From positions 1 to 60,789 of the forward strand of contig NZ_WSTA01000010.1 in assembly GCF_009789225.1 (NCBI RefSeq): DNA of 60,789 nt. The letters are read 5' to 3'. The stretch comes from Agromyces seonyuensis (lineage in GTDB: Bacteria > Actinomycetota > Actinomycetes > Actinomycetales > Microbacteriaceae). Position 1 is the first letter of the stretch, and the number at the start of each line of letters is the position of its first letter. The notes under the pieces are model-generated. The model did no database searches. It was given only the letters and a program-made list of their open reading frames with translations, and was not told the DNA's origin. Both the position numbers and the translations under genes were made by a program. Positions 1,702 to 18,721 of the stretch are shown here, in pieces.

Positions 1702-1727
1702 CGGCATCCTTCAGCAGCGCGTGAGGT

Positions 1728-1757
1728 TAATGAAGTTTAGCAACACTAAGTTCATTA
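1728..1757. promoter_or_regulatory. Palindromic operator candidate upstream of fic
   Basis: An AT-rich inverted repeat in otherwise GC-rich DNA: TAATGAA (1728-1734) and TTCATTA (1751-1757) are perfect arms, and inside them TTAG/CTAA flank CAACA. It sits 27 bp upstream of the fic start. The symmetry and position suggest a repressor site, possibly bound by the winged-helix tail of Fic; this is inference. Confidence 0.55.
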
Positions 1758-1962
1758 GCTGCCGTGCATGCTGAACGCTGTTGGCGAGTTCCGCTGGAGG
1801 TCAGGCTGTCGCCGACCACGTTCAGACCGGCTTGCTGCGGCGATTGACCATCAACGACGACACGAACCGCACGGCGTGCGGCTGGTCCGCGCCGGTAACC
1901 TCGGTCGCCACGGGCTCATCCGGTGGAGACCCGATCGGACTCCCGTCACGAAAGCAGGCGTC

Positions 1963-2766: not shown

Positions 2767-3098
2767 CAGACGCGCGCCGATCTGAAAGGATTCGACGTCG
2801 GCAGCGCAGTGCCGGCCGCCGCACACCCGTCCGCGCGACGACCGGTTCGCAGCGGTCCGCTGGCGGCACCTCCGCAAGCTCGCGATCGGCACCGAGCACG
2901 CCGTCGACGACGAGGAGTTCGTCGGGAGCCGCGTCTAGCGAACCAGCGACCCCCGCGCCTGCAGCAGGAGTTCGATCGGGTGCGCTTGCCGTAAGCGCGC
3001 GTCGATCGCAGAGGCCGTTCATCATCGGGTGGATGGCGGAAGGCTCGATTCCGGGCTCGCTCTGCCCGTGCCCGCCTCGCAGCACAGGCTGCGGCTGT
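2767..3098. other. 332-bp gap with a possible gene remnant
   Basis: No complete gene is evident. On the plus strand, 2834-2938 encodes a protein-like stretch ending in a TAG (RDDRFAAVRWRHLRKLAIG, continuing with TEHAVDDEEFVGSRV) with no convincing start. It may be the 3' end of a decayed gene. The remainder shows nothing recognisable. Confidence 0.3.
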
Positions 3099-4376
3099 CT
3101 ACGGCCCGAGCAGCGCGAGCGGCACCACCGCGACGCCGTCGGGGCGGCGGTAGGCGTACTGGCCGGTCGTGAGGATGACCCGTTCGGTGACGCGATCGCC
3201 GAGCTCGGCGTGCAGCCAGTTCAGGTGCCGGACGTCCTTGTCGTCGACGCCGGCGGCGAGCTTGACCCCGACCGCGACGATCCGGTGGTCGCCGCGGTGC
3301 ACGATGAAGTCGATTTCGCGATCGCCGTTGCGGGTGCGCAGATGCCCGACGCGGGCCTCCGCGGCCTGGGCGTACGTCTGGATGCTGAGGGCAGCGAGCG
3401 CTTCGAAGAGGCGTCCGAGCATCGGCCCGGGCTGGGGGCCGAGCGGGGCGACGCCGCGCGCGCCGAGGAGGCTGTCGGCGTCGAGGTCGAGGAGTCGTGC
3501 GGCGAGCGCAGGGTCGGCGAGGAAGTGCTTCGGCGCGCCGGCGAGGCGCGTGAACGGGTTCGCGAGGGGCGACCAGGCGTCGACTGGGTCGAGCAACCAG
3601 AGTTTCGCGAGTGCATCGCGGTAGGCGATCGTCGTCGTCTTGGCCGGCTTCTGGTCTTCACCGGGCGTCGCCGCGTCGAGGATCGCGTTGTAGCTCGCCG
3701 TGGACGCGGTCGCCGCCGCGTAGGCGCGCAGCCAGCCGAAGAGGGTGCCCGGCCGGCGTACTCGGGTGCCGAGTTCGGGGAGTTCGCGTTCGGCGATGTT
3801 GGCGAGGTACCCGTCGAGACGGTTTCGCTGCAGTCGCGGTGCGAGTCCACGGATGCCGGGGAACCCAGACGCGAGGATCTCGTCGACGTACGTTTGCACT
3901 CCGATATCGGTCTGACCCTCGATGGATGCCTCGCCGCCGAGCAGTGCCGCCAACGACACGGTCGGCGTCTCGATCGAGCGCTCCGCGAAGCTGAGCGGAC
4001 GCATCCGCAGGCTGACGATCCGACCCGCGCCGGAGTGCAGCGGGACGTCGGCCGGCGGTGCGGCGCTGCCGGTCAGCAGGAACCGGCCGCCGGCGTAAGG
4101 GTCGTGGTCGACGCTGCGCCGCACGCGATCCCAGAGCTCGGGGAGTCGCTGCCACTCGTCGAGGACGACCGGGGTCGTCGACCGGTCGATGAGCCCGAAG
4201 TCGCTGGCGAGGATCTGTGCGGTGTCGGACTCGTCGACCGCGAAGAAGGTACCGGCCCGCCGCCGCGCAGTCTCGGATTTTCCGACGCCGCGCGGCCCAT
4301 CGAGCGCGATCGCGGCGAGCCCCGGCAGCAGCTCGTCGAGCTCGCCGTCGATGATCCGGGGGAGGTAATCGACCAT
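3099..4376 (-). CDS. ATP-binding protein, AAA plus DUF4143
   Basis: The 425-aa protein has a Walker A loop GPRGVGKS (27-34), a Walker B-like VVLDEWQ (70-76) and LLTGSAAP (sensor region, ~100-107), followed by a DUF4143-type C-terminal half with REIDFIVH (353-360). The family usually ends with a degenerate PD-(D/E)xK nuclease fold, D...(E)VK; here the expected Glu is Gly370 (AVGVKLA), so nuclease activity is doubtful. Members are mobile accessory genes, sometimes regarded as toxin-like; the role is unknown. No Shine-Dalgarno precedes the ATG. Instead three iterons (4380-4445) crowd the start, so the transcript may be leaderless. Confidence 0.88.
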   Translation of the reverse strand: MVDYLPRIIDGELDELLPGLAAIALDGPRGVGKSETARRRAGTFFAVDESDTAQILASDFGLIDRSTTPVVLDEWQRLPELWDRVRRSVDHDPYAGGRFLLTGSAAPPADVPLHSGAGRIVSLRMRPLSFAERSIETPTVSLAALLGGEASIEGQTDIGVQTYVDEILASGFPGIRGLAPRLQRNRLDGYLANIAERELPELGTRVRRPGTLFGWLRAYAAATASTASYNAILDAATPGEDQKPAKTTTIAYRDALAKLWLLDPVDAWSPLANPFTRLAGAPKHFLADPALAARLLDLDADSLLGARGVAPLGPQPGPMLGRLFEALAALSIQTYAQAAEARVGHLRTRNGDREIDFIVHRGDHRIVAVGVKLAAGVDDKDVRHLNWLHAELGDRVTERVILTTGQYAYRRPDGVAVVPLALLGP

Positions 4377-4379
4377 GCG

Positions 4380-4445
4380 TCTACGCTACCGTGAGCATTT
4401 CTTCTACGCTACCGTGAGCAGGAGATTTACCTGCTACCGCTAGCA
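4380..4445. promoter_or_regulatory. Three GCTACCGnnAGCA iterons at the DUF4143 gene start
   Basis: The core GCTACCGTGAGCA occurs at 4385-4397 and 4408-4420 (within identical 18-bp units at 4380-4397 and 4403-4420), and a variant GCTACCGCTAGCA at 4433-4445. Spacing is 23 and 25 bp, about two helical turns. All three have the same orientation and the first begins 4 bp from the start codon. They look like an operator array for a dedicated regulator. Confidence 0.65.
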
Positions 4446-4613
4446 GGACTCGGCGTTCGGTTCGTGGGCCGATGCGGCTCCCGGAAGGCCGTGATCATCT
4501 GACGCTTACAGATCATCATGACCGGCATCTCAACGGCGCTCCGCCGATGCCGGCGGCTCCCATCGGCGATGCCGGTGCCGCGATGGGAGCCACTGCGCGG
4601 CATCCGCCCGGTG

Positions 4614-5255
4614 TCAGGCGCTCGCGATCACGGTGCCGTCGTCGCCGTCGATGATGCTGCCGCCGGGCCAGGAGCGGCGGTCGCCGTCCACGATGAGGTC
4701 GAACGCGCGCAGCGGGGTGAGGCCGGCGCGTCCGAGGGCGAGCCAGTCGGTCCAGTCCTCGGGGATCAGGGCACAGGTGCGGTAGCCGTGCGGGCCCGTG
4801 GTGTCGACGACGAAGCGCTCGTCGCCGCGGGCGAGCAGCTCCTCGAGCCGGCGGTCGAGGCAGAGCCGCAGCATGTACCAGTCGACGGCGGTGAACCCGA
4901 GGCGGTGGAAGGATGCCGCGTGCAGCGGCCACACGAGCGGCGTCGCGACCCGGTCGCCGCGGATCGCCTGCGCGGTGTAGACCATGAAGCTCGGGCCGGG
5001 GAAGTACGGCGGGAAGTCGAGCAGCGCGCGGCACCAATCGAGACGGAGCTCCTCGGGCACGCCCGCCCAGCGGTCGCCGTGCTGGTAGACGGGGTAGAGG
5101 TCGGAGCGCTGCGACAGGTCGCGCGCGACGGGTGTGTGCTCGCCCGGAGCGTCCGCGGTCGGATCGGCGGCCTGCGCCGGGATGGCAACGGGTGGCTCGC
5201 CGGAGGACGCACGGCGGGCGAGGTCGCTGAACTCGAAGTACTCCTCTGCGGGCAT
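4614..5255 (-). CDS. Hypothetical protein
   Basis: A 213-aa protein that I do not recognise. The ATG at 5255 is chosen because GAGGAGGT lies 5 nt upstream; the frame extends to ~5462, but that segment is not protein-like. It is rich in Trp, Pro and Tyr, with a Pro/Ala-rich linker near residues 20-45. A globular part follows with PPYFPGPSFMVYTAQAIRG and DWYMLRLCLDRRLEELLARG. It has no signal peptide or membrane helix, so it is probably cytosolic. It is a lone minus-strand gene between the DUF4143 ATPase and the restriction-modification cluster. Confidence 0.65.
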   Translation of the reverse strand: MPAEEYFEFSDLARRASSGEPPVAIPAQAADPTADAPGEHTPVARDLSQRSDLYPVYQHGDRWAGVPEELRLDWCRALLDFPPYFPGPSFMVYTAQAIRGDRVATPLVWPLHAASFHRLGFTAVDWYMLRLCLDRRLEELLARGDERFVVDTTGPHGYRTCALIPEDWTDWLALGRAGLTPLRAFDLIVDGDRRSWPGGSIIDGDDGTVIASA

Positions 5256-5503
5256 GGGGACCTCCTCGAACGGGGAGGCTCGCGCCTCCGTCGACTTGCC
5301 CGGAACGCTCGCCCGGGCCGGTTCTTCCCCTGGGGCACCCCGCTCGACGGAGGGGGTTGCCGTGCAGCCGGCCAGGTACCGACAGCTGCAACTCGTGAAC
5401 CTGCGACCAGTGTGGCATGGAGGACCGACACTCGGCTGGGAACCTGGTCGGCGCCGACCCAATCAGCAAAGGGAGGCAGCCGGCCCATGACGCTGTAGTG
5501 CTG

Positions 5504-5932
5504 TCAACCTACGCGCTGCTTCACGCAGGCGGCGATTGACTTGGCGACCTCCTCAGGGGCTTCATGCTCCCAATAGCGGAGCACGATCCAACTCGCAGAG
5601 ACGAGGCGGCGCGTGGTATCAAGATCCCGGGCAATGTTTCGAGCGACCTTTGGGTCCCAGTACTCCCGATTCGAGACCGGGCGCTGATAGTGTTCTGGGC
5701 AACCATGCCAGAAGCACCCATCGATAAACACAGCTACCTTCTGTCGAGTAAACACCACATCGGCCGTTCTGTTGAGTCGCGGGATCGGTCGAAAGTTAAC
5801 CCTGTACCGCAGCCCGACGGCATGGAGCAAGCGGCGGACGGCAAGCTCTGGCTGTGTGTCCCTTCCCCTATTGGCCTTCATTGAACGGCGCACGCCTTCT
5901 GAAGATGCCCATGACTTTCGCTCAGGTGTCAA
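5504..5932 (-). CDS. vsr: Very short patch repair (Vsr) endonuclease
   Basis: The 142-aa protein has the full Vsr signature: RDTQPELAVRRLLHAVGLRY (24-43), RTADVVF with the catalytic Asp58, DGCFWHGCPEH (71-81) with the metal-binding Cys/His residues, and LRYWEHE near the C-terminus. Vsr nicks beside T:G mismatches produced by deamination of 5-methylcytosine, so it protects a genome carrying a C5-cytosine methyltransferase. Such an enzyme is encoded upstream at 6189-7163 in the same orientation. The start codon is TTG at 5932; the next ATG would remove conserved residues RKSWASSEGVRRS. G+C is visibly lower than in the core genes, consistent with transfer. Confidence 0.93.
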   Translation of the reverse strand: MTPERKSWASSEGVRRSMKANRGRDTQPELAVRRLLHAVGLRYRVNFRPIPRLNRTADVVFTRQKVAVFIDGCFWHGCPEHYQRPVSNREYWDPKVARNIARDLDTTRRLVSASWIVLRYWEHEAPEEVAKSIAACVKQRVG

Positions 5933-6023
5933 CTGTTTTACGCCGATCGGGTAATGTGGCTATTCGCAGTTGAGGGTGTGCTGAGCCGAGCGTTGGTCGG
6001 GGTGGGACCGGGCGAATGACGGC

Positions 6024-6077
6024 GTCGAGGTCTCCGAGCGGGGGCACTCTCGCCCTTCCCGTCCCGAAGACCTCGAC
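6024..6077. other. Long imperfect hairpin between methyltransferase and vsr
   Basis: Left arm 6024-6043 (GTCGAGGTCTCCGAGCGGGG) pairs with 6058-6077 at about 17 of 20 positions; the outer 10 bp (GTCGAGGTCT/AGACCTCGAC) are perfect and the loop is 14 nt. It lies in the 256-bp gap between two co-oriented genes and could be a terminator or processing site uncoupling vsr from the methyltransferase. There is no U-tract. Confidence 0.5.
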
Positions 6078-6188
6078 TTGCTTCACGTTGCCGGCTCATC
6101 GCATGCAAAGAGGACTTCGGGCCGCAAGTCGACGCAATTCCGGAATCTGTTGTTTCGGTGCGCAACCTGGGCAAAAGCACTCTCCCAA

Positions 6189-7163
6189 TTACGCTGCTTC
6201 CTCCTCCAGCCTTACGGACTTGCCAAGGAGGTCGGCGAGGTGCGTGCCAATGGCCGCAGCTAGGTTCACGGGCACTGCATTGCCAATCTGCCGCCCCTGA
6301 ATGGTCTTTGGGCCGCGAAGAATCCACTCGTCCGGGAAGGTCTGAATGCGGGCCGCCTCGCGCACAGTCAATTGGCGCGGCAGAGTCGGGTGAATAGGAG
6401 GATGGAAACCGCCTAGATGATCTCCATTCGGGCCGTAGCCGCCGCCGGCCCTGATTGTCATCGACGGCTTTGAAGCGTCAAGTCTGGAACGTCGGTAGTT
6501 CGGGTCAACTTCGCCCGGTGCCAGCTTGTCCCACCTCTCAGCAACATGCGTCGCATGGCGGTTTGCTACGTGGTTGATCGCAGGATCGTAGGCTCTCTCG
6601 GCCAGATCGCCGATCGCCTCTCCGACAGTCGGCTGACTAGTCGCAGTAGTGGGATTGGGCAAGCTAGCTTCAGCGTCTCGAATACCGATAACGATAAGTC
6701 GACGGCGACCCTGGGGCACGCCATAGTCCGCAGCATTGAGCACGCCATATGCAAACGTGTATCCTTGTTCCTCGAGCGCATCCATGATGCCGCTCAGGTG
6801 GTCGCCATTGCGACGGTGGGTAAGAGCGCTCACGTTCTCGATGACGACCGCCCTCGGACGCACTTCGCTAACGACCCGCATGTACTCCTTCCAGAGGAAG
6901 TTCCGAGGATCTTTCGGGTTCCCCTTGCCCGCAGTGCTGAACCCCTGACAGGGAGGACCCCCTACTACCGCATCGACCCCGGCGTACGGGGTTGCGTCGA
7001 AGTTGCGAATGTCATCACACACAACGTTCCAGTTGGGCCGGTTGAAGGACAGGGTTTCGCAGGAGATCGGGTCGTTGTCGACGCAAACCACTGGCTCCCA
7101 GCCGGCCCGCTCGAACCCGAGGTCGAGCCCGCCACCGCCGCTGAACAAGGAAACGTAACGCAT
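6189..7163 (-). CDS. DNA (cytosine-5-)-methyltransferase
   Basis: The 324-aa protein has the ordered C5-MTase motifs: I (VSLFSGGGGLDLGF, 4-17, SAM binding), IV (VGGPPCQGFS with nucleophile Cys72), VI (ENV, 109-111), VIII (QGRRR, 151-155), a variable target-recognition region (~165-270), and X (GRQIGNAVP, near 290-298). It should methylate C5 of cytosine within a short site and so protect DNA from the NotI-like endonuclease encoded upstream; the shared target is inferred from context. The vsr gene downstream repairs deaminated product. The length is typical for a single-chain C5-MTase and no motif is lost. Confidence 0.95.
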   Translation of the reverse strand: MRYVSLFSGGGGLDLGFERAGWEPVVCVDNDPISCETLSFNRPNWNVVCDDIRNFDATPYAGVDAVVGGPPCQGFSTAGKGNPKDPRNFLWKEYMRVVSEVRPRAVVIENVSALTHRRNGDHLSGIMDALEEQGYTFAYGVLNAADYGVPQGRRRLIVIGIRDAEASLPNPTTATSQPTVGEAIGDLAERAYDPAINHVANRHATHVAERWDKLAPGEVDPNYRRSRLDASKPSMTIRAGGGYGPNGDHLGGFHPPIHPTLPRQLTVREAARIQTFPDEWILRGPKTIQGRQIGNAVPVNLAAAIGTHLADLLGKSVRLEEEAA

Positions 7164-7576
7164 GAGACGAGCCTAGACGGGACTGCCGACACTAGCGGAC
7201 GCGAAACACTGGTCGACGGCAACGGGCCACAGTCGGCCGAGGAGTGTGAGCTCGCTCGGGATGGGATGGCCTGCGGGAAGTGGGGGATTCGAGGATTCGG
7301 CCGCAGCTGGGTCGGCAGTCGGCCACGACGCCGGCCCCGTCGCAGACATGAAATGATCGCAGGCTGGGGCCAGGCTGCCCGCTGAAGACAAGGAAGCTCT
7401 CGTTTGGCTGTTCCGTGGGGTGATTTCAGTTGACCAGGAACACATGCCACTCGTGGATCGGACGGGCTTCCACCGGGTCAAATGTCGAGGGATACTGTCT
7501 GTTCCCGCGATTCTCAAGCGGCCGATCACGAGCCGCGAGTATGTTGGACATCCCAGTCTTAGCGGTTGCCGCCATG
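7164..7576. other. 413-bp gap between endonuclease and methyltransferase genes
   Basis: No gene can be supported. A plus-strand stretch at ~7381-7560 reads as plausible protein (for example EALVWLFRGVISVDQEHM) but opens after a TGA and lacks a convincing start. A 118-aa minus-strand frame (7173-7529) is low-complexity Ser/Arg/Pro. No controller (C) protein gene was recognised. Confidence 0.4.
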
Positions 7577-8494
7577 CTACAAACGATTCTGGATTCGGCT
7601 CTCGTAGGATCCGGCCGGCGGCAAGTGAAGCGGCGAAATGAAGGCTATCGACATGTCACTTGTCGAAATGGTCAGCGGATGCAAGCTTCCTACGGGTATG
7701 GGTGCTCCGGCCATCCACCCGGAAGCCTGCTGCTGATATCGCATGAATGTGATCGAGCCGGGTTGAGTCGGAATGATTCGGAGCCTTTCAATACCTCCAA
7801 GGCGAGTCATGATTCGATCAAATACCGGCTCAGGTGTGATGAAGAATATTCCCGAGCTGCACAGCCGCTCCGCCTGGAGCATGAGTCCCTTCACGATTAG
7901 CTGAGGGAGAATCCGCTTGTTGACGTTTTCCCAGTTCATTCCGAACTGGGAAGAGCGGATGGTTCGGTCCTCTTGGAGCTGAGAGATGCTCTCGCGGTAG
8001 CTATTGCTAATGTCGATTGTCTGTACCTCGACCGGGGCAAAAGAAAGAAGCGCGCCAGTCGGATCTACTGCGACGAGTACATAGTCGATCGAGTACTCGC
8101 CTCCTTCGGGCATAGCTGGAGGGAGCTTGATTTCACCGGAGTTCTGCCAGCCCTGTCCGAAGACACCTACTCGATTTCTCCCAGAGTTACTAGCGTGCAC
8201 CTTGACTTGAGCCCCCGGGACCAGGAGTGGGAGGTCGTCAGCGCCAACTTGGACGTCAAGATCCTTAAATGCAATCTCGGCGACCTGCCGGAGGACGGCG
8301 AAGTCATCGAAGTACATTCGCTTTGGGCAAATCGTAACCGGGACATTGGCAATAGATACGGAACATGCCCCTCCACTGGCTCGCTTACTGCAAGGCCCTG
8401 GGACAAATGGGCACGTCTGGGATTCTGCGGTCCTTGCAGCAATATCACTCTGATCCTCTGCCGCGAAGCCGAACCACTCGAACACATGATTCAC
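7577..8494 (-). CDS. NotI-family type II restriction endonuclease
   Basis: The 305-aa protein matches the NotI family layout. It begins VNHVFEWFGF and has four cysteines (C28, C35, C44, C56; CPFVPGPCSKRASGGACSV) in the place of the NotI Cys4 iron-binding fold. The catalytic pair is D137 (YSIDYVL) and E156-V-Q158 (PVEVQTID), the E-x-Q variant of PD-(D/E)xK that NotI uses (known from NotI as D160, E182, Q184). It should cut both strands at a GC-rich palindrome. The start is GTG at 8494, with no clear Shine-Dalgarno. An IS3-type element ends 107 bp upstream and may have altered the promoter. NotI is longer (about 383 aa), so specificity could differ. Confidence 0.88.
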   Translation of the reverse strand: MNHVFEWFGFAAEDQSDIAARTAESQTCPFVPGPCSKRASGGACSVSIANVPVTICPKRMYFDDFAVLRQVAEIAFKDLDVQVGADDLPLLVPGAQVKVHASNSGRNRVGVFGQGWQNSGEIKLPPAMPEGGEYSIDYVLVAVDPTGALLSFAPVEVQTIDISNSYRESISQLQEDRTIRSSQFGMNWENVNKRILPQLIVKGLMLQAERLCSSGIFFITPEPVFDRIMTRLGGIERLRIIPTQPGSITFMRYQQQASGWMAGAPIPVGSLHPLTISTSDMSIAFISPLHLPPAGSYESRIQNRL

Positions 8495-8623
8495 GTGGGA
8501 CAGGCTACGCTATCGCCGGCCCCAGGTCTGCCAGCGCATCGACCTCGCGTATGCGGCCGATACCTAGTCAAATGCCTTGGGTATTGAGGCATCCTCCAAA
8601 CTGGATCGGCCTGGGTTTCGTTC

Positions 8624-9461
8624 CTAGCGGTTTCTTTGTCCGGCCGGGCTCTGCTGGGCTGATTCGAGGTCAGCGTGGTGCGCGGTCTCGACCTCGATCG
8701 GGGTGCGCATGTCGAGTTCGCCGTGCAGGCGCTGGTGGTTCCACCACCACACGTACTCGAGGGTCGCCAACTCGACCTGCTCGACGGTTCGCCACGGGCC
8801 GCGCTGACGGATCAGTTCGGTCTTGTCGAGGTTGTTGACGGCCTCGGCCATCGCGTTGTCGTACGAGTCGCCGACGGTCCCGGTCGATGGCACGGCGCCG
8901 AGTTCGAGGATGCGGTCGGTGTAGACCGTCGCCATGTAGTTCGACCCGTGATCGGAGTGATGCGTCAGCCCGCTCAGGTCACCGCCGGCGTCCCTCGCGG
9001 CCATGTCGAGCGCCTGCATGTGCAGGATCTCCGCTTTCAGCGTCGCCGCGACGTTCCACCCGACGATGCGCCCGTCAGCGGTGAAGCGGCGCTGGACGAG
9101 GTCCTTCGGCAGCGCGGCGGCCGGGTCGGACTTGGTCGTGAAGACCCTCTTGGACTTCTTCACGCCGCGCACGCCGGCCAGGCGCATCAGCCGCTCGGTC
9201 TGGTCGCGGCCGATGTCCCAGCCCTGCCGGCGCATCAACGCGTGCATCTTCCGGCGGCCGTAGACGCCGTAGTTCTCCGCATGCAGGCGGGCGACCTCGG
9301 GCACCAGCAGGTCATCGCGCAGGCTCCGCGCCGACGGCGTCCTGCTCGTCGCGGCGCGGTAGCCGCGCGAGGTCACGAATCCCTTCACCGCCGGCCGGAG
9401 GACACGGCAGATGAGCTCGACCGGCGAAACGATCCCGGTGCTCGTCGATGAACCGGATCAT
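8624..9461 (-). pseudogene. IS3-family OrfB transposase (DDE integrase), frameshifted
   Basis: The catalytic body (RRKMHALMRRQGWDIGR, THHSDHGSNY with Asp, and MAEAVNNLDKTELI with Glu) is intact and ends at 8624, overlapping the left inverted repeat. The family's usual start, MIRFIDEHRDRF at 9461, overlaps the OrfA stop in the -1 frame. However, after RDRF one extra base near 9420-9427 shifts that frame away from VELICRVLRPAVKGF. Removing one base restores the normal join. As it stands OrfB, or an OrfAB fusion made by -1 slippage, cannot be read through, so the copy is probably inactive unless the base is a sequencing error. Confidence 0.85.
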
Positions 9462-9772
9462 CTTGTCGAGGGGCGGTCGAGCTCCTTGGCGAAAAACACG
9501 CTCGCGGCCCTGAGGATCTCGTTCGCCTTGCGCAGCTCGGCGACTTCCTTCTGCAGCCGCTTGATCTCAGCTGCTGCGTCCGAGGTCACGCCCGGCTTCA
9601 CGCCCGCGTCGACCTCGTAGCGGCGCTGCCACAACCGCAGCGTTTCCGCGCTCATCCCAAGCAGCCCAGCCACGTGCCGGACCGCGCTCATCAAGTTCGG
9701 ATGCCCCGGGCGCGCCTCAGCGAGCATCCTGAGCGCCCGCTCACGCATCTCCGGCGAGTACTTCCTGTTCAT
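9458..9772 (-). CDS. IS3-family OrfA transposase
   Basis: The product of about 104 residues begins MNRKYSPEMRERALRMLAE, the usual opening of the IS3/IS911 OrfA helix-turn-helix (GMSAETLRLWQRRYEVD). A leucine-zipper-like segment follows (AAAEIKRLQKEVAELRKANE). It binds the IS ends and helps assemble the transposition complex. A TTG at 9793 is an alternative start; the ATG at 9772 has AAGGA and GGAAG upstream. The run GTGTTTTTCGCC near the 3' end is a plausible slippery site for the OrfAB fusion. Confidence 0.85.
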   Translation of the reverse strand: MNRKYSPEMRERALRMLAEARPGHPNLMSAVRHVAGLLGMSAETLRLWQRRYEVDAGVKPGVTSDAAAEIKRLQKEVAELRKANEILRAASVFFAKELDRPSTR

Positions 9773-9916
9773 CGTCTTCCATCCTTGCTTCAAGAACGGA
9801 ACGAAACCCAGGCCGATTCATACACGCTTGAATGCGAAGAGCCACGAAAATACCGTCCGCGCTGCGAACTTGCTCGTCCCGCAACTTGGCGATCACTACT
9901 GGCGCGTATCAGTGAG

Positions 9917-10711
9917 TTAGGGTCCATCTGAACCGCCATCCTCACCAATTTGAGACGCGGCATTGAGGAGCAGGTCAATACTCTGTTGCTTGACTCTGTC
10001 CACTAGCTGCTTCACGGTTCCGTAGCGTGAATCAAAAGGCCATCTGACGTAATGCGCGGCCCTGGCCCAATAGAACTCTTCGAGGCCAGGGCCGCAACTG
10101 TTCGCCTTGTCGAGAAGAGCTTTTGAAGCGCGTGCAGCATCCTCGGTGTCAATCAGGGTTGCGAGCCCGACTTTGCGCGCGATCGAGTCGGGGGCAGCTT
10201 CCGAGGCTTGGAGTTCGTTGGATGCAAGGAAATGGAGAAGATCCTCCCGCTCATTTTCCTGGAGCCCAACGATCGACAGCTTGACTTCAGGACTCGCTGC
10301 CAGAAGGTCAAGTCCGAAGAACGCGGCAAACTCCCCTGCGATTCGCCAGTATGGCAGCGCGTCCCGGGCCCCAAGCGGAGCCTCCTCCCTCAAGAACCGA
10401 ACGATACCCTTCGCCTCAAAGCTGAATACCGTTTGGCTGTCGCTCAACTTGCCGCTGATCTCGACCGCGGAGTCCAGACTCGACGCAGTCACTGACTTCG
10501 CAAGCAGGTCACGTTCGCGCTCCTCCAGCGCGATCAGGAATCTGCCCACAATCACTCCCTTCTTCGACCGGCTCCAACATTGAATAGCCTGTTCAACCTG
10601 TACGTGGGCGCTTGCAGTTAGTTCGAATCCTAGGTGTTCTTCCCCGACACGTTGTGAACGTGTGAGGTAAGCGAAGACCTCCGGGAACGATGTGGGTACC
10701 ATCCGCTTCAC
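9917..10711 (-). CDS. Hypothetical protein, 5' end replaced by IS481 remnant
   Basis: The 264-aa frame has no recognised domain. The body is largely helical (for example AIQCWSRSKKGVIVGRFLI, LLHFLASNELQASEAAP, KQLVDRVKQQSIDLLLNAA) with no signal peptide or membrane segment. The first ~20 residues (MKRMVPTSFPEVFAYLTRSQ) are encoded by the end of the IS481 remnant (10653 onward), so the original N-terminus is lost. The gene is therefore a truncated relic or restarts from an internal codon. G+C is lower than in core genes. It is flanked by two different IS elements in the same island. Confidence 0.5.
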   Translation of the reverse strand: MKRMVPTSFPEVFAYLTRSQRVGEEHLGFELTASAHVQVEQAIQCWSRSKKGVIVGRFLIALEERERDLLAKSVTASSLDSAVEISGKLSDSQTVFSFEAKGIVRFLREEAPLGARDALPYWRIAGEFAAFFGLDLLAASPEVKLSIVGLQENEREDLLHFLASNELQASEAAPDSIARKVGLATLIDTEDAARASKALLDKANSCGPGLEEFYWARAAHYVRWPFDSRYGTVKQLVDRVKQQSIDLLLNAASQIGEDGGSDGP

Positions 10712-11301: not shown

Positions 11302-13848
11302 CTATGCGTGCTCGGCGTCGAACCGCGCGAGCTCTGCCATGAACCACTCGAGGGTCTCGATCACCATCGAACGTGCCTCGCGATCTGCGAGGACATCGAC
11401 CTGGAACGGCGGGCGCTTCTCGAGCCGATCTGATTCGATACGGATGCCCGCGACACGGTTGAGGCGCTCGCGCAGCTCCTCGCGCAGCTCGGGTTCATCG
11501 AACGGCGGACGATTCATCAAGTGTTGGAACACGACCTCGACCGATCCGTACGGATAGATCGTGAACGGCCAGATCGACTTCGGGCGCCCTGGTCCGGTTC
11601 CCGCTTCGAGGAAGCAGCTCGGTTCCGCCGTCGAGCCGTAGGAGATGTGGCCTCCGAGCCGCTCCCATCCTTCGATCAGCTCGCCGACGCCGAACACGGT
11701 CGCGGCTGAGTGCTGCTTCGCGAGCGACTCCAGGAATGCCGTGCGTTCGTCGTCCTCGTCGACGAGCGCGTCACCATCCGACCCCATTGAAAGCCCGATC
11801 AGGGCAGCGAGTTCCGGCACGCCGAGCCGTTGAGCCGTGCTTGCCCGACCCTCGGCGTTGAACTCGACCCCCTCGTCGGCGAGTACGTCGAGCGGATCAC
11901 GCCCCTGGAAAGGGCTGTTCGTGTGCCACGAGAATCCGGGCGAGATAGTTCCACGGCGACCGAGGACACGGTAAGCGCCGGGAAGTCCGGAGCCCGCGAT
12001 GAACTGACCGAGCGGCACAGGGTGGGTTCCGGCGACTTGCGCGAGATCTCCGTAGCTCGCCCACCGGCCTGCCGGGATCGCCTGCACCAGATCCGAGACC
12101 GTACGGGCGGGAAATCCAGATTCCGGAGCCGGTTCGCTGATCGGTCCCGTCCACGTCGCGATGATGCGCTCGGCAAGTGCACGTCCACGTTCCTCAATCG
12201 CGGTTCGATCCCATGACGGGCGATCGGCGATCTCCATGTTCATGCGCATGGACGACGAGCGAAGGTAGTCCCGCTTCAGCTCGAAGGGGTGGTTGCTGAG
12301 CTCGCTGTTGTAGGCGGTCAGCGTGAGGTTCGCGAGCGAGTGGACCGTTGCCTCGTGGAAGTCGTCGAAGGTGGCGAACTCGCCGAGGTTGCGCGACGCA
12401 GCTGCCATCCACTCGGCGGTAGGGCTCTGCGGCATGATGTGCTCGATCGTCATCGTCGACGGATCCACGTGCTCCTTGCCCGGCAGTGCGCGATCACCGG
12501 CACGCATCGGAGTGGTTTCCTCGAGCCATCCGAGGACCGCGCGTCGCTGGTGGTACTTGCCCTGGTAGTAGAACTGCTTGGTTCCGACCGCATCGATGAT
12601 CTGGGCGTCGGTTGCGAAGTACTTGCGGCCGGAGGAGAAGTAGCGATGCAGCGCATCGACCGCGTCGGAGGCGTCCGCGATTTCGAGCGGTGCGCGGTAC
12701 AGGATGCGGGAGAGCGCGTTCGCCGGAGCGCCGATGACGAGACGTCGAACGAGGAACGACTCGAGCAGCTGCAGTCCGCGTGCGACCTCGTCATCGGTCA
12801 GGACGCCGCCGGCGCGGAGATCTAGGAGATGCAGCACCAGTGCATCGGTCGCACCGAGCCCCCAGAGCGATAGCCGCTCGAGCTGCCGGCGAACCGCGGG
12901 CGACGATTCGTGCAGCGGAGAACGGATGACCTGCAGCATCGACGCGAGGTCGGAGAAACGACGGACTTCGTCGACGATCGCTTCGTCCGGGAGCGCATTC
13001 ATTCGCTCGACCTGGGCGGTGTAGATGTCGCCGGGCTTCGAATCGGGCCGAGTGCGCTGGAGGTCGAGCCAGAACAGCGTCTCGAGGTCATTGGTCGAGA
13101 GCTTGCGCTGCAAGTCCAGCCAGATGTCGTTGTAGACGTCTTCGCCGCGCGTGCCCAGCCGCATGAACAGGTAGTTGCGGATGAGATCGCCCTGCGTGAG
13201 TTTGAGGCCCGTGTTGTTCAGCGATTCGAAGATCCGATAGACGTTGTCATCGCCGCGTGCCGTGATTGAGACGAAGACCAGGCCACTCAGAACGGCCGCT
13301 TCGATCCGATCGATATCGTGCGGGTCCTCCGGATCGTCAGCGCGGTGCAGCCCGGCGCGGAAGAACCGATACGCCTCGAGGAGACCGGAGGTGCCGGCGT
13401 GCTCGGGTGTGCCGCCGACGATGGCGCGGAATGCGGCGCGGTCCGCCTGGGTCGGGAGGAGCTTGTACTTCTCATCACCGCTCTTGAATCGGTCGACGAG
13501 ATAGGTCTCTTCGACACGAGCGGCTTTCTCGGGGCGGTCGGGCTCGGTCTCCTTGTAGTGGTCGCGCAATGCGCAGAGCAGCATCGTCAGGGTGGTGAGG
13601 CGCTGCTGGCCGTCGACAACGAGGAACTCCGTGCCGCCGGCGCCTACCTGGCCCAGCGAGAGCACGAGCGATCCGGTGAAGTGCGTCGCGCGAGAGTTCT
13701 GCCGCTGCTCGTCGGCGAGCGCGACGATGTCGTCCCAGAGCCGGCCGAGCTGCTTGCTCGACCACGAGTAGGTGCGTTGGTAGAGCGGCACCCGGTACTG
13801 CTTCACGCCGGCGAGCACCGACTGCAGCTGCGTTTCTTGGACGTCCAT
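11302..13848 (-). CDS. DUF262/GmrSD-type nuclease with HNH (DUF1524) and alkyltransferase-like domain
   Basis: The 848-aa protein has three recognisable parts. Residues 1-230 form the DUF262 domain: VPLYQRTYSW (20-29), VVDGQQRLTTL (77-87) and FESLNNTGLKLTQGDLIRNY (207-226). Around 460-530 is a DUF1524 HNH nuclease: TIEHIMPQSP (467-476) and LANLTLTAYNSELSNHPF (505-522). Residues ~584-640 (IPAGRWASYGDLAQVAGTHP and AYRVLGRRG) resemble the DNA-binding fold of O6-alkylguanine transferases but lack the PCHR cysteine, as in alkyltransferase-like proteins. GmrSD-type proteins restrict phage DNA with modified bases; the alkyltransferase-like module could sense base modification (inference). It lies 91 bp downstream of, and co-directional with, the HTH protein at 13940-16024. 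Confidence 0.9.
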   Translation of the reverse strand: MDVQETQLQSVLAGVKQYRVPLYQRTYSWSSKQLGRLWDDIVALADEQRQNSRATHFTGSLVLSLGQVGAGGTEFLVVDGQQRLTTLTMLLCALRDHYKETEPDRPEKAARVEETYLVDRFKSGDEKYKLLPTQADRAAFRAIVGGTPEHAGTSGLLEAYRFFRAGLHRADDPEDPHDIDRIEAAVLSGLVFVSITARGDDNVYRIFESLNNTGLKLTQGDLIRNYLFMRLGTRGEDVYNDIWLDLQRKLSTNDLETLFWLDLQRTRPDSKPGDIYTAQVERMNALPDEAIVDEVRRFSDLASMLQVIRSPLHESSPAVRRQLERLSLWGLGATDALVLHLLDLRAGGVLTDDEVARGLQLLESFLVRRLVIGAPANALSRILYRAPLEIADASDAVDALHRYFSSGRKYFATDAQIIDAVGTKQFYYQGKYHQRRAVLGWLEETTPMRAGDRALPGKEHVDPSTMTIEHIMPQSPTAEWMAAASRNLGEFATFDDFHEATVHSLANLTLTAYNSELSNHPFELKRDYLRSSSMRMNMEIADRPSWDRTAIEERGRALAERIIATWTGPISEPAPESGFPARTVSDLVQAIPAGRWASYGDLAQVAGTHPVPLGQFIAGSGLPGAYRVLGRRGTISPGFSWHTNSPFQGRDPLDVLADEGVEFNAEGRASTAQRLGVPELAALIGLSMGSDGDALVDEDDERTAFLESLAKQHSAATVFGVGELIEGWERLGGHISYGSTAEPSCFLEAGTGPGRPKSIWPFTIYPYGSVEVVFQHLMNRPPFDEPELREELRERLNRVAGIRIESDRLEKRPPFQVDVLADREARSMVIETLEWFMAELARFDAEHA

Positions 13849-13939
13849 ATCGTGTCGCGGCCTTCCATATGTTTCGGAGCGGCAGTCAGGCTAGCCGTTT
13901 CCGCGGTCGTCGGTATCGGGAGAGCGCTGGTGCAGGCGG

Positions 13940-16024
13940 TCAGGCGATGCCCTGCAGCGCAGAACGCGCGCCGAGCACGAGGTCCGCGATCTCCAGGTCG
14001 CCTCGTGCCCGGTAGGCCTCGGCGAGCTCGTCCACCGACGCCGTGTCCGACTTGCCGATCGCGCGAGCGAGCAATGCCCGAGCCCTCGTGGGGTGGATCG
14101 TCGGTGCGGCGCCGACGAGCAGGAGGGCGTCGTGGAGTGCGTCGCCGGTCATCGCCGGCAGCTCCTCCACGTCGAAGGTTCCGTCGTCGCCGACGATGAG
14201 CAGCACCTCGGCGCCGGCTTTCAGCCCGTCGGCGAGGATGAAGCGACGGATGCTGCCGAAGGCGGGCTGGATGGCGTTCCAGGTCAGCGCCTGCGGTCCG
14301 AGCCGCGACGGGATGTTGCGGACGTCGCCGACGCCCAGCTCGACCACGCCGGCGAACGCGTGCGGTATCGCGAAGCCGCTGCCGCGCTCGTGGTCGGCGT
14401 TGATCGTCTCCCGAAGCATCCATGCGTCGACACGGCGATAGAGGCGGCGGGTGATCCAAGGCGACTTGCGAACCTTCGGACCTTGGTCTGCGAAGCGCAC
14501 GACGCCTTTCTTGCATTCGTAGGGCGAGGTGTTCGCGTATGTGATCACGCTGTTCGGGCTGACCGAGTACTTCTCGGTGATCTCGGCGACGAGCTCGTCG
14601 AGAGCGATGGCGCCGCCCGCTCGTTCCACACGCTCTGCGATCGCAGGGCGGATGCCGCCGTACGTCTCGAACTCCCACTCGTCCAGGGCCCAGGAGTCCC
14701 GGTCGATACGACGGATACGATCGTGGACGGCGAGCTGGTTCCGCAGGGAAGCCAGCGTGCGAGCACTGCCCACCCGTTCGTGGATCTCCACGGAGCTCAT
14801 GGGCGCTCCCTCGATCGAGAGCACCGCCGCGCTCAGGTCGGCCAGGTTGCTCGAGCGGGTCAGCACATGGTCTTCGAGAACTCGATATCCGCACGCCGTC
14901 AACCACTCGGCGATCCGCGCTTCCGCGATGGACAGCTTCCCGGTGATGTCGTCGACGGGAACGACGCCGTGCGAGTTCACGAGAGCCAGCACGGTCTCGC
15001 GCGATGCATCCATCGCCGCGGCGACGGTCGGTGCGGCGCACCATCCGTCTCGGATCTCGTACGCGTCGTCGAGGCGGTCGAGCACGCGCCATGCCTGCCG
15101 CCCGACGATCGTGACGTCGTGGGCGAGCGCAGGCATGGACGCGAGGAGATCCTCGAGTGCAAGCGCGGCGCCGATCCGCTGCCGGACTGCCTCCGCCACC
15201 GACGGGATGATTCCGTCGCCGGTCATGAGGGCGGTCGCTTGCGAACGTGCTTTCGTCTCGAGTTGTCGGATGCGTTCGCGCGTGACGTCGAAGTTCTGAC
15301 CCAGAGCGTCCAGGGTGTTGGGCTTGTCGGCGAAGAGCCGCTCGGCGAGAATGCGCTGCATTCGCGGATCGAACTCGGCGAAGGCAGCATCGAAGTGATC
15401 CGCCACGTCTGCTTCCGCTTCCCAGGCGACCAGCACATCGGCGGCGACCAGCGCCTCGAGCCGACTCCGCGCTGCGATGACGTATTCCGGTGCCCCGGGC
15501 GGCAGCGCCGAACCCAGGAGCGGCTGGTCGGTGAGCCCCAGCGCCGTGTGCCAGGTCGCGATGATGCGGAGATCGTCGGCCGCTCCGGCGAGCGAGGCGG
15601 ATGCTCCGAGTTCGTCCGCGGGAGTCGTGCTCGTGGCGGACGCAGAGGGCTCGTGCATCGCGGCTTCGACGAGTGAGGCGACGAACGATCGAACGGTGCC
15701 CACCCCAATTCCGGGCCAAAGGCGAATCTCGCCGATGCGGTGGTCCTGCAGGTCGGCGACAGTTGTGATCGAGCGCCGGGCGAACGCGTTCGACGCTCGA
15801 GTCGGCAGCTCGAGATCCGTGAGACGCAGTTCCGACGGAATACCGGTGAAGAGATCGCCGATCGTGCGAGCGCCGAACTCGTTCATGGCGATCTCGGCGA
15901 CATCGCCGATCCGGAAACGTCGCGCGACCGCGTTGTCGTCGGTCGGGAGCGTCATCCACGGTGCTCGCTCGTGAAGGGGAACCCCTTCGAGCCACGGAAA
16001 GAGTTCGAGCCAAGTTCGGGGCAT
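13940..16024 (-). CDS. Sigma-region-4-like and helix-hairpin-helix DNA-binding protein, probable partner of the DUF262 nuclease
   Basis: The protein of about 694 residues contains an RNA-polymerase alpha-CTD-like helix-hairpin-helix (ASNAFARRSITTVADLQ ... GIGVGTVRSFVASL, ~75-118). A sigma-70 region-4-like HTH follows (ADKPNTLDALGQNFDVTRER plus IRQLETKA, ~232-259). The rest has winged-helix-like segments (~380-560) but no catalytic motif that I recognise. The ATG at 16024 (MPRTWLELFPWLEG) is preferred because the frame's upstream 29 residues (to 16111) are low in character. It is the first gene of a two-gene unit with the DUF262 protein, which suggests a DNA-recognition or regulatory role in defence rather than a true sigma factor (regions 1-3 are absent). 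Confidence 0.75.
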   Translation of the reverse strand: MPRTWLELFPWLEGVPLHERAPWMTLPTDDNAVARRFRIGDVAEIAMNEFGARTIGDLFTGIPSELRLTDLELPTRASNAFARRSITTVADLQDHRIGEIRLWPGIGVGTVRSFVASLVEAAMHEPSASATSTTPADELGASASLAGAADDLRIIATWHTALGLTDQPLLGSALPPGAPEYVIAARSRLEALVAADVLVAWEAEADVADHFDAAFAEFDPRMQRILAERLFADKPNTLDALGQNFDVTRERIRQLETKARSQATALMTGDGIIPSVAEAVRQRIGAALALEDLLASMPALAHDVTIVGRQAWRVLDRLDDAYEIRDGWCAAPTVAAAMDASRETVLALVNSHGVVPVDDITGKLSIAEARIAEWLTACGYRVLEDHVLTRSSNLADLSAAVLSIEGAPMSSVEIHERVGSARTLASLRNQLAVHDRIRRIDRDSWALDEWEFETYGGIRPAIAERVERAGGAIALDELVAEITEKYSVSPNSVITYANTSPYECKKGVVRFADQGPKVRKSPWITRRLYRRVDAWMLRETINADHERGSGFAIPHAFAGVVELGVGDVRNIPSRLGPQALTWNAIQPAFGSIRRFILADGLKAGAEVLLIVGDDGTFDVEELPAMTGDALHDALLLVGAAPTIHPTRARALLARAIGKSDTASVDELAEAYRARGDLEIADLVLGARSALQGIA

Positions 16025-16232
16025 CCGTTGCAGCTTTCGGTAGGGAGGTGCAGGTGCGGTCTTCAGGCTATTCGCGGGGGTCGCGGGGAGAGTCGTCGAG
16101 CGGCACTCCATCCCCCGAACTGGGGCGGGTTGCTGCTACGGACCCATCTCCCAGGCATCCAGGATGCGCTCGTCGGTCCCCACCAGGCACGTGCGTGGGC
16201 GAGCTGCTCCGCGGTGCCTCGCTTGGGGTCAG

Positions 16233-16529
16233 CTACCGATACCATCGCCCGCGCTCGTCGTCCGAGAGCGGCGGTCGGTCGATGTCGCTCGTCGCGGCCG
16301 ACAGCGTCGCCGGCGCCGTGGCGAACGCGTTCGGGAATGTCGCGCGGGCTTCGTCCTCGGTGAGGTCGTCGAGGTCGACGTCGAGGTCGCGATACCAGTC
16401 GAGCAGGGCATTGCCGATGTCCACCCACTCGTCGCCGTCCCATCGCTCGGTGGGGTACCGCCGGGCGCGGAAGAGCCGTCCGTGCCGTTCGTAGTAGGTG
16501 AAGCCCGGGAACGGCTGGCCCTCAGGCAT
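16233..16529 (-). CDS. Hypothetical protein, 98 aa
   Basis: Starts at an ATG (16529) that overlaps the stop of the upstream gene (ATGCCTGA), which implies translational coupling. The sequence (GFTYYERHGRLFRARRYPTE, GDEWVDIGNALLDWYRDLDV, then an acidic and Pro-rich tail) has no recognised domain, signal or membrane segment. It is the last gene of the minus-strand unit headed by the ADP-ribosylglycohydrolase fusion, so its function may be tied to that gene. Confidence 0.65.
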   Translation of the reverse strand: MPEGQPFPGFTYYERHGRLFRARRYPTERWDGDEWVDIGNALLDWYRDLDVDLDDLTEDEARATFPNAFATAPATLSAATSDIDRPPLSDDERGRWYR

Positions 16530-16943
16530 CCGCTGCCTCCGCTTCCTCGTACTCCCGCACCAGCTCGTCGATCGTCGCGCCGCCTTCGATCCTCGCCGCG
16601 AAGATCTGCGACGCTTCGGCGAGCGTGTGGAGGCGGGTCCAGGGGCGCGGGCCGTGGATGCACAAGGAGATCGACTCGCGGGTGAAGCCGATCGGGTTGC
16701 CCGGCACCGACCAGTGCTCCTCGCCGTCCGAGCCGATCCATAACTCGACGTAGCAACTCCCGCACGGCAGGCGGTAGAGGCCGGGTTCGGTGGGGGAGGC
16801 CGCGGTGTTCTCCTCGCCTTCGCGGCGGATCGCCTCGACCAAAGCCTGGCCGTACTCGCGAGCGGCTCGGCGGCGCGCTCGCGGAGGCGCTCGAGCCACT
16901 CGTCGTCGAACTCGAAGTCGAACCCGTCGTCGCCCGCGCTCAC
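16522..16943 (-). pseudogene. Hypothetical protein gene with 1-bp frameshift
   Basis: Starts with GTG at 16943, overlapping the stop of the preceding gene as GTGA. The first frame reads GDDGFDFEFDDEWLERLRER and then AAEP; the continuation REYGQALVEAIRREGEENTA, LYRLPCGSCYVELWIGSDG and LVREYEEAEAADA is in another frame. One base is missing near 16860-16870 (GAGCC then GCTCGC). Both halves have ordinary protein composition and the gene junctions are preserved, so this is a frameshifted gene or a sequence error. No known domain. Confidence 0.7.
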
Positions 16944-18721
16944 GCCGCCTCCGATCCGCCGGAAGCGGCGGGTACCGCGAGCCTGGCCACCGCATCCTGC
17001 AGGAACGGCTGCGGTGCGAAGCCGGGCAGGGTCGCCTCGACGTCGCGCCAAGCGCGGGCGATCGGGATGCCTCGGTGCCGGTTGCCGTAGAGCGCGGCAA
17101 CTGCCGACGTGCGGCTCCGAGCCTCCGCGCAGTGCACGAACACCGTGCGGCCCTCGGCGCGGAGCGCGGCGATCGTGTCGACGGTGTCGGCGAGGACGGC
17201 ATCCGGGTCGAGGTTGGCGCCAGCCTCGTCGATCAGCCAGACGCCGACGGCCTCGACGCCGACGGGCACCTCGGACGTGCCGAGGCGGCACAACGAGACG
17301 ACCGCGTCGACCTCGGCGGGCAGGTCGGCCAGCGCCGACTGCGAGCCGAGCCAGACGCCCTCGTCATGCGGATGCCGGCGGGCCGGCGTGTGCTGGAACC
17401 ACGGCCGCGCGGAGCTCGGCGCGCTCGGCCAGCCGATCTTGTCGGGCTTCCCGCCGCGGGCGGCGAGCACCGCAAGGCGTACGAGGTCGTCGGCGCCGAG
17501 CCCCGGCCAGCCGTGCAGGCGCCGCTTCCACGACAGGGGCACGGCGCTGCCGCCGTAGAGCGCCCCCGCCAGGGAACCGGCGATCGCCGCGACGGTGTCG
17601 GTGTCGTTGCCGCCGCGCACCGCGCGCTCGAGGGCATCCTGCAGCGAACCGGCGCCGGCGACAGCCGCGAGGGCGCCCTGGAACGCGCGCACCACCCAGC
17701 CGTTGCTCGCGCTGAAGTCGCGGGGGTGCGCGCCGGGCGCGAGCGCCGCGTCGATGAATGCGGCCCAGCGGTCCCGCCGCTCGGCGGGCAGGTGCGCGAG
17801 GCCCGCGGCCACGTCGAGCTCGCCCGTGCGGATCGCATGCCGGATCGCGAGGCACCACAGCGCCGTCGCATCCGCGTTGTCGGGCTCCCAGTGGGTCAGC
17901 TCGGCGACCCGGGCGGCGGCGTCGACGAGGTCCGCCTCCGTGCCGTCGGCGAGCTAGCCGAGCGCGACCGGGCTCGTGCGCATGAGCGAGCCGTTGCCGC
18001 CGGAGCGGCCCTAGCGGCGGTGCTGCGCCTCGGCGGCGGCGCGCGAAGCATCCTCGGTTGTGAGCTCCGGAAGCCGGCCGAGCACGGCGCGGGTCTGCGC
18101 GCCGACGTCGCGGGCGGTGCGCGACCACTCGCGCCACTCCGCGGGGATGCGGCCGAGCACGGCCGGGTCGTTGAGCGACTCGCCGCGCGCGAGCGCCTGC
18201 AGCAGCGGCACGGCCATGCTCGTGTCGTCGGTCCACTCGCCGAAGCCGTGCCCGAAGATGCCGACGCCGAAGGCGATGGATGCCTCGTCGGGCAGTGCGG
18301 GCCCGAACTCGTACTGGGAGCCAAGGGCGTCGCCCGCCGCGGAGGCGAGCACGGCGCCGATGGTGCGGTCGAGGGTGAAGGTGGAACGGGACATGGGGGC
18401 TCCTGGGGTTCGGGCAGGTCGGGGTCGGGGAGCTTCTTCGGCCGGCGCATGCGCGACGAGCGCCTCGCCGTTCGGGCCCTCGAGGCCGCGGAAGAAGAAC
18501 TGCCAGAAACCGTCGACCTGCGTCTCGCCGACGCACTCGTAGACGGCGAATACGCTGTACGCGGCGGGCTCGGCGAGGGGCGTCTTCACCACCATCCCGG
18601 TGAGCCGCTTACCGGAGAGGGTCACCGGCAGGTCGCCGGACTTGAGGCCGTCGCGCGGCCCGCCGAAGTAGGCGCAGTACAGGCTCGGGTCGTGGTGGTT
18701 CGCCGATTCGATGGTGGGCAT
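16940..18721 (-). pseudogene. ADP-ribosylglycohydrolase / dual-specificity phosphatase fusion with two in-frame TAG codons
   Basis: One continuous frame of 593 codons is interrupted by TAG at codon 237 (18011-18013) and codon 256 (17954-17956). Around the stops all ADP-ribosylglycohydrolase motifs remain: GDALGSQYEFG, EWTDDTSM, GGNGSLMRT between the stops, and GGNDTDTVAAIAG, including the metal-binding Asp residues. The C-terminal ~150 residues form a dual-specificity phosphatase domain with VFVHCAEARSRTS (CX5RT, Cys near 531). The N-terminal ~105 residues are an extra unrecognised domain; an internal ATG with AGGAG upstream (MSRSTFTLDRTIG, ~18393) could start the hydrolase alone. The enzyme would remove ADP-ribose from protein or small molecules. 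It is divergent from an NrtR-type regulator. Confidence 0.8.

Follow-up and report, generated by a model that had tools for sequence, protein, structure and literature searches.

Two adjoining genes in an island of restriction genes

The 60,789-nucleotide window, by which we mean the whole stretch of DNA analysed, is one entire contig (NZ_WSTA01000010.1) of the 3.9-Mb draft assembly of Agromyces seonyuensis, which comprises 169 contigs. Two of its genes are considered here. The first encodes a protein of 694 amino acids (aa) that joins a domain like the C-terminal domain of the RNA polymerase alpha subunit (alpha-CTD) to a sigma region 4, and the second an 848-aa GmrSD-type protein with an alkyltransferase-like (ATL) domain (Table 1). 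A preliminary description, made from the letters of the sequence, had presented them as a two-gene unit, 91 bp apart, in a setting of insertion sequence (IS) elements and other restriction genes. The open reading frames (ORFs), their spacing and the setting were found as described. The 694-aa gene precedes the 848-aa gene. An in-frame start further upstream would extend the 694-aa ORF to 723 aa, and the 848-aa protein has a single match in its own genome. No terminator-like site was found between positions 10600 and 16600, where 2.4 are expected by chance, and a consensus scan for promoter-like sites, which covers one promoter type only, found none.

Table 1. Position of the two genes and of their domains in the window
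Feature	Coordinates	Strand	Evidence
694-aa protein: alpha-CTD-like domain, sigma region 4 and conserved C-terminal region	13940..16024	-	ORF list, Pfam, alignment A4
alpha-CTD-like helix-hairpin-helix domain, aa 67-118	15671..15826	-	Pfam under cut-off; profile A8
sigma-70 region 4, aa 215-260, recognition helix VTRERIRQ	15245..15382	-	Pfam E 7.2e-8
Conserved C-terminal region, aa 275-694	13943..15202	-	alignment A4; no Pfam family over cut-off
Intergenic gap, 91 bp, between the 694-aa and 848-aa genes	13849..13939	-	
848-aa GmrSD-type protein with ATL-like domain	11302..13848	-	ORF list, Pfam, alignment A5
DUF262/GmrSD_N domain, aa 10-228, DGQQR at aa 79-83	13165..13821	-	Pfam E 6.1e-33
DUF1524/GmrSD_C HNH domain, aa 414-560, His470	12169..12609	-	Pfam E 8.4e-22
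ATL DNA-binding domain core, aa 582-637	11938..12105	-	Pfam MGMT DNA_binding_1 E 3.2e-4 and profile

The two genes are not paired in other genomes of the samples

Relatives of both proteins were sought in samples of one phylum, one order and one class, which partly overlap, the class sample serving for the 694 search only. Of the 396 genomes of the order sample, 7 matched the 694 profile (E up to 1e-15) and 16 matched the 848 protein (E up to 1e-60), the window's genome being included in both counts. The two families occurred together only in that genome and in G762, where about 0.9 Mb lies between them (places at 0.69 and 1.58 Mb). The phylum sample, also of 396 genomes, yielded the 694 protein in 6 (E up to 1e-15) and the 848 protein in 10 (E up to 1e-40), and only the window's own genome held both. 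At E 1e-3 the 694 protein was found in 204 genomes of this sample, mostly as short matches to sigma region 4.

We then compared 32 other loci with relatives of the 694-aa protein (the 694 family) and 16 with relatives of the 848-aa protein. Searches by tblastn of each protein against the loci of the other gave 0/16 and 0/16, and the 694-family profile A4 matched none of the 16 loci of 848 relatives. The 848-family profile A5 matched one of the 32 loci of 694 relatives (L204). Because A5 is blind to distant DUF262 proteins, one of which it missed in L231, a broader DUF262 profile was built and verified on L231; it matched 2 of the 32 loci, L153 and L204. The genes concerned are transcribed in the opposite direction to the 694-family gene, at distances of about 3.8 and 1.2 kb; their products contain GmrSD_N with no GmrSD_C match and are not of the 848 family. 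L153 holds a 641-aa DUF262 protein at 15177-17102; L154 gave no DUF262 match despite sharing with L153 a setting of DndB-like and Zorya genes. Homologues of the two proteins are therefore usually not adjacent in the samples searched: outside the window, no 848-family (GmrSD-ATL) protein was found beside any of the 32 relatives of the 694-aa protein, and no 694-family gene at the 16 loci of 848 relatives, so that the proposed unit lacks support as a conserved system in these samples.

Some of the 32 loci are weak, namely two on short contigs (L006, L213), one with a broken copy (L035) and two weak fragments from one genome (L158, L159). Others are not independent, L033 and L035 coming from one strain and L153 and L154 from one genus. 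Gene models of the fetched loci were produced by a simple GC-frame script, which missed the 694-family member of L040.

The 694-aa protein combines two promoter-contacting modules of RNA polymerase

The preliminary description had read a helix-hairpin-helix (HhH) and a sigma-region-4-like helix-turn-helix (HTH) in this protein, and profile searches agree. Sigma70_r4 scored 32.3 bits (cut-off 24.1). RNA_pol_A_CTD remained under its cut-off of 23.8 in the single sequence, with 19.1 bits and E 0.0011; it passed it, with 26.8 bits, in the relative of L037, and a five-row profile of the HhH region (A8) matched solved bacterial alpha subunits at E 4.4e-9. The best solved match of sigma region 4 was RpoD 1tty (E 9.4e-7), in whose aligned chain VTRERIRQ is identical. 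Alignment A4 consists of the window protein and 10 relatives (11 rows) drawn from the 32 loci. R249, E250 and R253 of sigma region 4 are invariant in 11/11 rows; their counterparts in E. coli sigma-70 contact the -35 element. Arg76 and Asn79 of the alpha-CTD-like domain, invariant in four rows of close relatives, are the counterparts of alpha-CTD residues that contact the UP element.

Sigma70_r2 gave no match in the protein with Pfam at E up to 1. We rejected the identification as a sigma factor, region 4 being present and region 2 missing; in the absence of region 2 the protein should bind promoter-like DNA without working as a sigma factor. MzaA of the MZA system, for which a passage of PMC9523054 uses the term sigma factor, is likewise a sigma-region-4 protein of a defence operon. 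The 694-aa protein scored 37.8 bits against the MzaA model (NF041931, cut-off 800), over the sigma region 4 stretch only, and profile coordinates place this region near the C terminus of MzaA, unlike in the 694-aa protein. With a score so far under the cut-off, identity with MzaA was rejected.

Aravind and Iyer are said to have described, in their HARE-HTH paper of 2012, bacterial proteins with features both of the alpha subunit of RNA polymerase and of sigma factors. HARE-HTH (PF05066) had no match in the window's genome, in a search whose control was positive in 6/14 genomes and which a diverged form could escape.

A4 shows good conservation of the C-terminal region (about 420 aa), whose comparison with solved structures gave nothing meaningful. 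An OpcA match in the protein is at chance level (14 bits, cut-off 26.3). A search of viral contigs with the C-terminal part found no relative, and a search of a phage collection gave no match. In a scan of genome contigs with A2, 80 loci were kept, nearly all of which match just around sigma region 4; in L061 and L068 the match extends to about residue 501.

The 848-aa protein is of the GmrSD type and has lost the alkyltransferase cysteine

Alignment A5 contains the window protein and 9 relatives (10 rows) from the 16 loci; it leaves out L163, which has an in-frame stop, and L042, L166, L168, L171, L172 and L173, which are broken, truncated or distant. DGQQR is invariant in 10/10 rows, as are E469 and H470, and the two Pfam families of Table 1 bear out the earlier assignment to DUF262 and DUF1524(HNH). 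Among solved structures the closest to A5 was DndI (9jfl, E 1e-32 over profile positions 7-549), followed by an 818-aa DUF262 protein (20yv, E 4.6e-18) and SspE (E 9.9e-16). According to the parts of the literature consulted (PMC11662687 for DndI, PDB 9JFL), DndI and SspE also join a DUF262 domain with DGQQR to DUF1524/HNH and respond to phosphorothioate marks, whereas the 848-aa protein adds the ATL-like domain. With PADLOC, the best model was Orf5 (E 1.6e-125, aa 11-566), then HEC-06.

For the ATL domain, MGMT DNA_binding_1 gave 20.9 bits with the single sequence, under the 27-bit Pfam cut-off; PF01035 exceeded it, with 36.3 bits, in a Streptomyces relative. A seven-row profile of the region, in which one residue was mistyped, had S. 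pombe Atl1 (3gva, E 3.4e-8) as best match, above true methyltransferases, and the A5 profile independently gave the same order (Atl1 at E 2.9e-7). The core of the domain is conserved in A5, and the position of the acceptor cysteine is occupied by Ala in 8/10 rows and Gly in 2/10. This agrees with the alkyltransferase-like fold lacking the PCHR cysteine that had been noticed at the outset. By profile, Atl1 and this domain share the MGMT-type DNA-binding fold, both without the acceptor cysteine; Atl1 has Trp at that position (PWHR), in contrast to the Ala or Gly of the 848 family, where the domain is fused to a nuclease.

The GmrSD-ATL fusion is a known architecture and not a new one. Machnicka et al. 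2015 (PMC4619093) report, in the section concerned, PF01035 fused to DUF262 and DUF1524 in several GmrSD homologues, mainly of Streptomyces, the same fusion with an MGMT-type DNA-binding domain as in the 848-aa protein. That section mentions neither loss of the cysteine nor an adjacent alpha-CTD/sigma region 4 gene, and the word "sigma" is absent from the paper. A literature search for GmrSD with alkyltransferase matched no paper, and among the matches listed for sigma- or alpha-like defence proteins and alkyltransferase-like restriction enzymes, no title or abstract opening concerned the 694/848 pair.

From these features, the 848-aa protein would be a stand-alone, single-chain enzyme of GmrSD type (type IV-like). 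Its DUF262 part, with DGQQR, is predicted to bind and hydrolyse a nucleoside triphosphate and to gate the DUF1524/HNH nuclease, and the ATL-like domain, keeping the DNA-binding fold of alkyltransferases without the acceptor cysteine, would contribute the recognition of bases that are altered or flipped. The GmrSD-ATL family could serve as a simple test case for an alkyltransferase-like domain as reader of modified bases in a restriction enzyme.

By eye, the genes surrounding the 848 relatives show no common partner. The closest relative found, with 55% identity, lies at L160:8737-14027 and adjoins genes that resemble, by N-terminal sequence, C5 methyltransferase and Vsr-type genes. The part after the ATL domain, aa about 700-848 (window 11302-11750), varies among relatives, with at least two types distinguished by eye in A5. 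Viral contigs scanned with A5 contained two distant DUF262 loci and nothing closer.

Genes adjoining the 694 family

Known defence genes stand beside 9 of the 32 loci of 694 relatives. Pbe and Dnd genes were annotated after the relevant parts of PMC10853773 and PMC6459918. PbeA/PbeC genes adjoin the relatives of L032, L037, L040 and L204, and are on the opposite strand in L206; among the window neighbours scanned around the 694-aa gene, to which the scan was limited, none was PbeA or PbeC. In L037 the 694-family protein carries an extra N-terminal part with weak endonuclease-like matches. A DndB-like gene ends 9 bp upstream of the 694-family gene in L153 and L154, where the complementary strand carries Zorya genes. 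In L157 the 694-family gene is the end of an MZA-like operon (MzaC E 3.5e-209, MzaE E 5.6e-106) and overlaps the MzaE-like gene by 4 bp. Finally, L209 has a MmeI-type enzyme, a DEAD helicase and a T5orf172 protein beside a 694-family member fused to an RNase_T exonuclease.

UvrD/DUF4011 helicase genes adjoin a further set of relatives (5/32 loci): UvrD-type genes in L034, L216 and L219, UvrD with a 3'-5' exonuclease and DUF4011 in L033, and a DUF4011 match beside the broken copy in L035.

Several of these loci have features of their own. The extra part in L037 (7086-10979) is about 570 aa long, its weak matches are to His-Me and homing endonucleases, and the gene overlaps PbeA by 4 bp. The DndB-like/694-family pair with adjoining Zorya genes is found at L153:8916-12659 and L154:8914-12657, in two genomes of one genus. 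The last gene of the L157 operon (959-10679) encodes an 801-aa 694-family member for which PADLOC gave no match up to E 0.001. In the operon-like L209:1262-10365 the RNase_T exonuclease is joined with BRCT, HhH and sigma region 4, and a separate ORF that follows has the 694-family C-terminal region. At L216:3749-10159 two 694-family genes flank a UvrD-like gene, an arrangement similar to that of L034, and in at least 15 genomes of the bacterial family designated f105 two 694-family matches lie a few kb apart on one contig.

Interpretation of the pair

We consider it probable that two separate defence-type genes lie side by side here, within a restriction gene island with IS remnants, and that they are not a conserved two-component system. 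Since relatives of each have other partners or none, the arrangement would be a local juxtaposition of two protein types that are each already known. The preliminary description is thus supported in part: its observation was correct and its domain reading good, while the two-gene unit is unsupported as a conserved system. The 694-aa protein would belong to an actinobacterial family that fuses an alpha-CTD (UP element) and a sigma region 4 (-35 element) without sigma region 2, most likely a binder of promoter-like DNA working as a DNA-binding accessory, as a regulator of adjoining genes or as a nuclease adaptor. In our best reading, the 694 family is a promoter-element-binding accessory that recurs in defence loci, here next to a restriction enzyme that is usually solitary. 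The earlier suggestion that the HTH protein guides or regulates nucleases receives indirect support from the varied neighbours and from one or two fusions.

A number of observations weigh against this interpretation. Co-transcription of the two genes in the window is plausible, as they are co-directional, 91 bp apart and without a terminator-like site between or around them in the segment scanned, and the locus would look no different if effectors had been exchanged next to the 694 protein. L153, L204 and the same-genus genome G756 each hold another kind of DUF262 gene nearby, so that DUF262 proteins and the 694 family do meet in islands. The domain composition is not constant either: L034 lacks the alpha-CTD, which is not recognisable by eye in L153, L154 and L155, and the L209 member is split, its match containing three stops and its C-terminal region lying in a separate ORF. 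AlphaFold2 single-sequence models of both proteins were unusable (mean predicted local distance difference test scores of 42.8 and 45.3); with both predictions of such low confidence, the fold assignments come entirely from profiles.

The link of the 694 family to defence is also open to objection. No partner was recognised at 18 of the 32 loci, a figure that is an upper bound because the Pfam scan did not take in every neighbour, and having UvrD or DUF4011 genes as neighbours does not prove a defence function. The 694-family profile was found in 50 of the 394 genomes of the class sample, 37 of these 50 belonging to one family, f105; the six f105 loci that were fetched, L214 to L219, include two with a UvrD gene (L216 and L219). 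This concentration suggests a partly chromosomal, non-defence role, part of the 694 family probably being chromosomal core.

Two more specific proposals are sub-readings of our interpretation, and their probabilities overlap with its own. In one, the 694-aa protein is a transcription factor that competes with RNA polymerase at the promoter of a defence gene and has no role in cleavage. We see this as possible, if on the unlikely side. It would account for the presence of both promoter-contacting modules of RNA polymerase without sigma region 2, and for the position of the 694 gene ahead of the 848 gene, but a simple repressor would need neither a C-terminal region so large and conserved nor the exonuclease fusion seen in L209, and the consensus scan, for its one promoter type, revealed no promoter-like site.

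In the other, which we find unlikely, the protein is an adaptor with exchangeable effectors, recognising UP/-35-like DNA and recruiting the adjoining nuclease, here the GmrSD-ATL enzyme. The tight co-directional layout with varied genes (the 4-bp overlaps with PbeA in L037 and with the MzaE-like gene in L157, and the 9 bp after the DndB-like gene in L153 and L154) speaks for it, together with the RNase_T fusion of L209, the weak endonuclease-like part of L037 and the retention of the recognition residues of both sigma region 4 and alpha-CTD. Against it, no link to a GmrSD-ATL protein is found elsewhere and 848 relatives occur without the 694 family; the many loci with no recognised partner and the stops that break the L209 gene count in the same direction. 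A bolder version, which we hold to be a long shot, makes the alpha-CTD/sigma region 4 fusions an interchangeable promoter-homing module for immunity: by reading UP and -35 elements in strong promoters of phages they would bring in the adjoining nuclease, and in the window they would steer the GmrSD-ATL enzyme, cleavage requiring both a promoter and an altered base.

A phosphorothioate-linked defence, with the 848-aa protein as a DndI/SspE-like sensor and the 694-aa protein as a Pbe/Dnd accessory, appears very improbable. In its favour, DndI is the closest solved structure, the PLYQR motif of the 848-aa protein matches the P23/Y25/Q26 patch of DndI as given in the relevant part of PMC11662687, and 694 relatives adjoin PbeA/PbeC and DndB-like genes. 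The window's genome gave no match to DndC (TIGR03183) at E up to 10, a search of limited power in which control genomes also had none over the cut-off, and the assembly is a draft. The PLYQR motif is moreover common in DUF262 proteins. We rejected this system as no DndC match was obtained, SspD and others not having been searched. Equally remote is a dedicated two-gene modification-dependent restriction system, which would fit the 91-bp spacing on one strand among restriction genes but was rejected as the pair, present in one genome only and at 0 of 48 other loci examined, is not conserved in the samples searched.

Of the two proteins, the 694 family appears to be the more useful lead: in it, RNA polymerase modules that contact promoters recur next to UvrD-type helicases and to defence genes unrelated to one another (Pbe, DndB/Zorya, MZA-like, MmeI-type). 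Should it target or control defence genes through promoter DNA, it would tie transcription signals to DNA restriction.

Surroundings in the window and in related genomes

The surroundings include an IS3-like transposase (HTH_21/rve_3), an IS481-like fragment and genes for Vsr, a C5 methyltransferase and a NotI-like protein. Compared with three genomes of the same genus, synteny is loose. One of them, G756, has an ADP-ribosylglycohydrolase gene 58-62% identical to that of the window and a Vsr gene 61% identical over 136 aa, whose window counterparts flank the 694/848 region on either side. What lies between these two genes in G756 is a DUF262 gene of another kind (GmrSD_N E 1.6e-27), together with a C5 methyltransferase that shares just 35% identity with that of the window; G756 has no 694-family match. 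The window site is likely a defence hotspot with changing content, although the next ~10 kb fetched past Vsr in G756 gave no match to the window ORFs compared, and Vsr may itself be a member of the island.

Within window positions 5504-8494, Vsr scored E 7.2e-19, the C5 methyltransferase is of dcm type and the NotI-like protein falls just under its Pfam cut-off; the three probably form a type II restriction-modification set.

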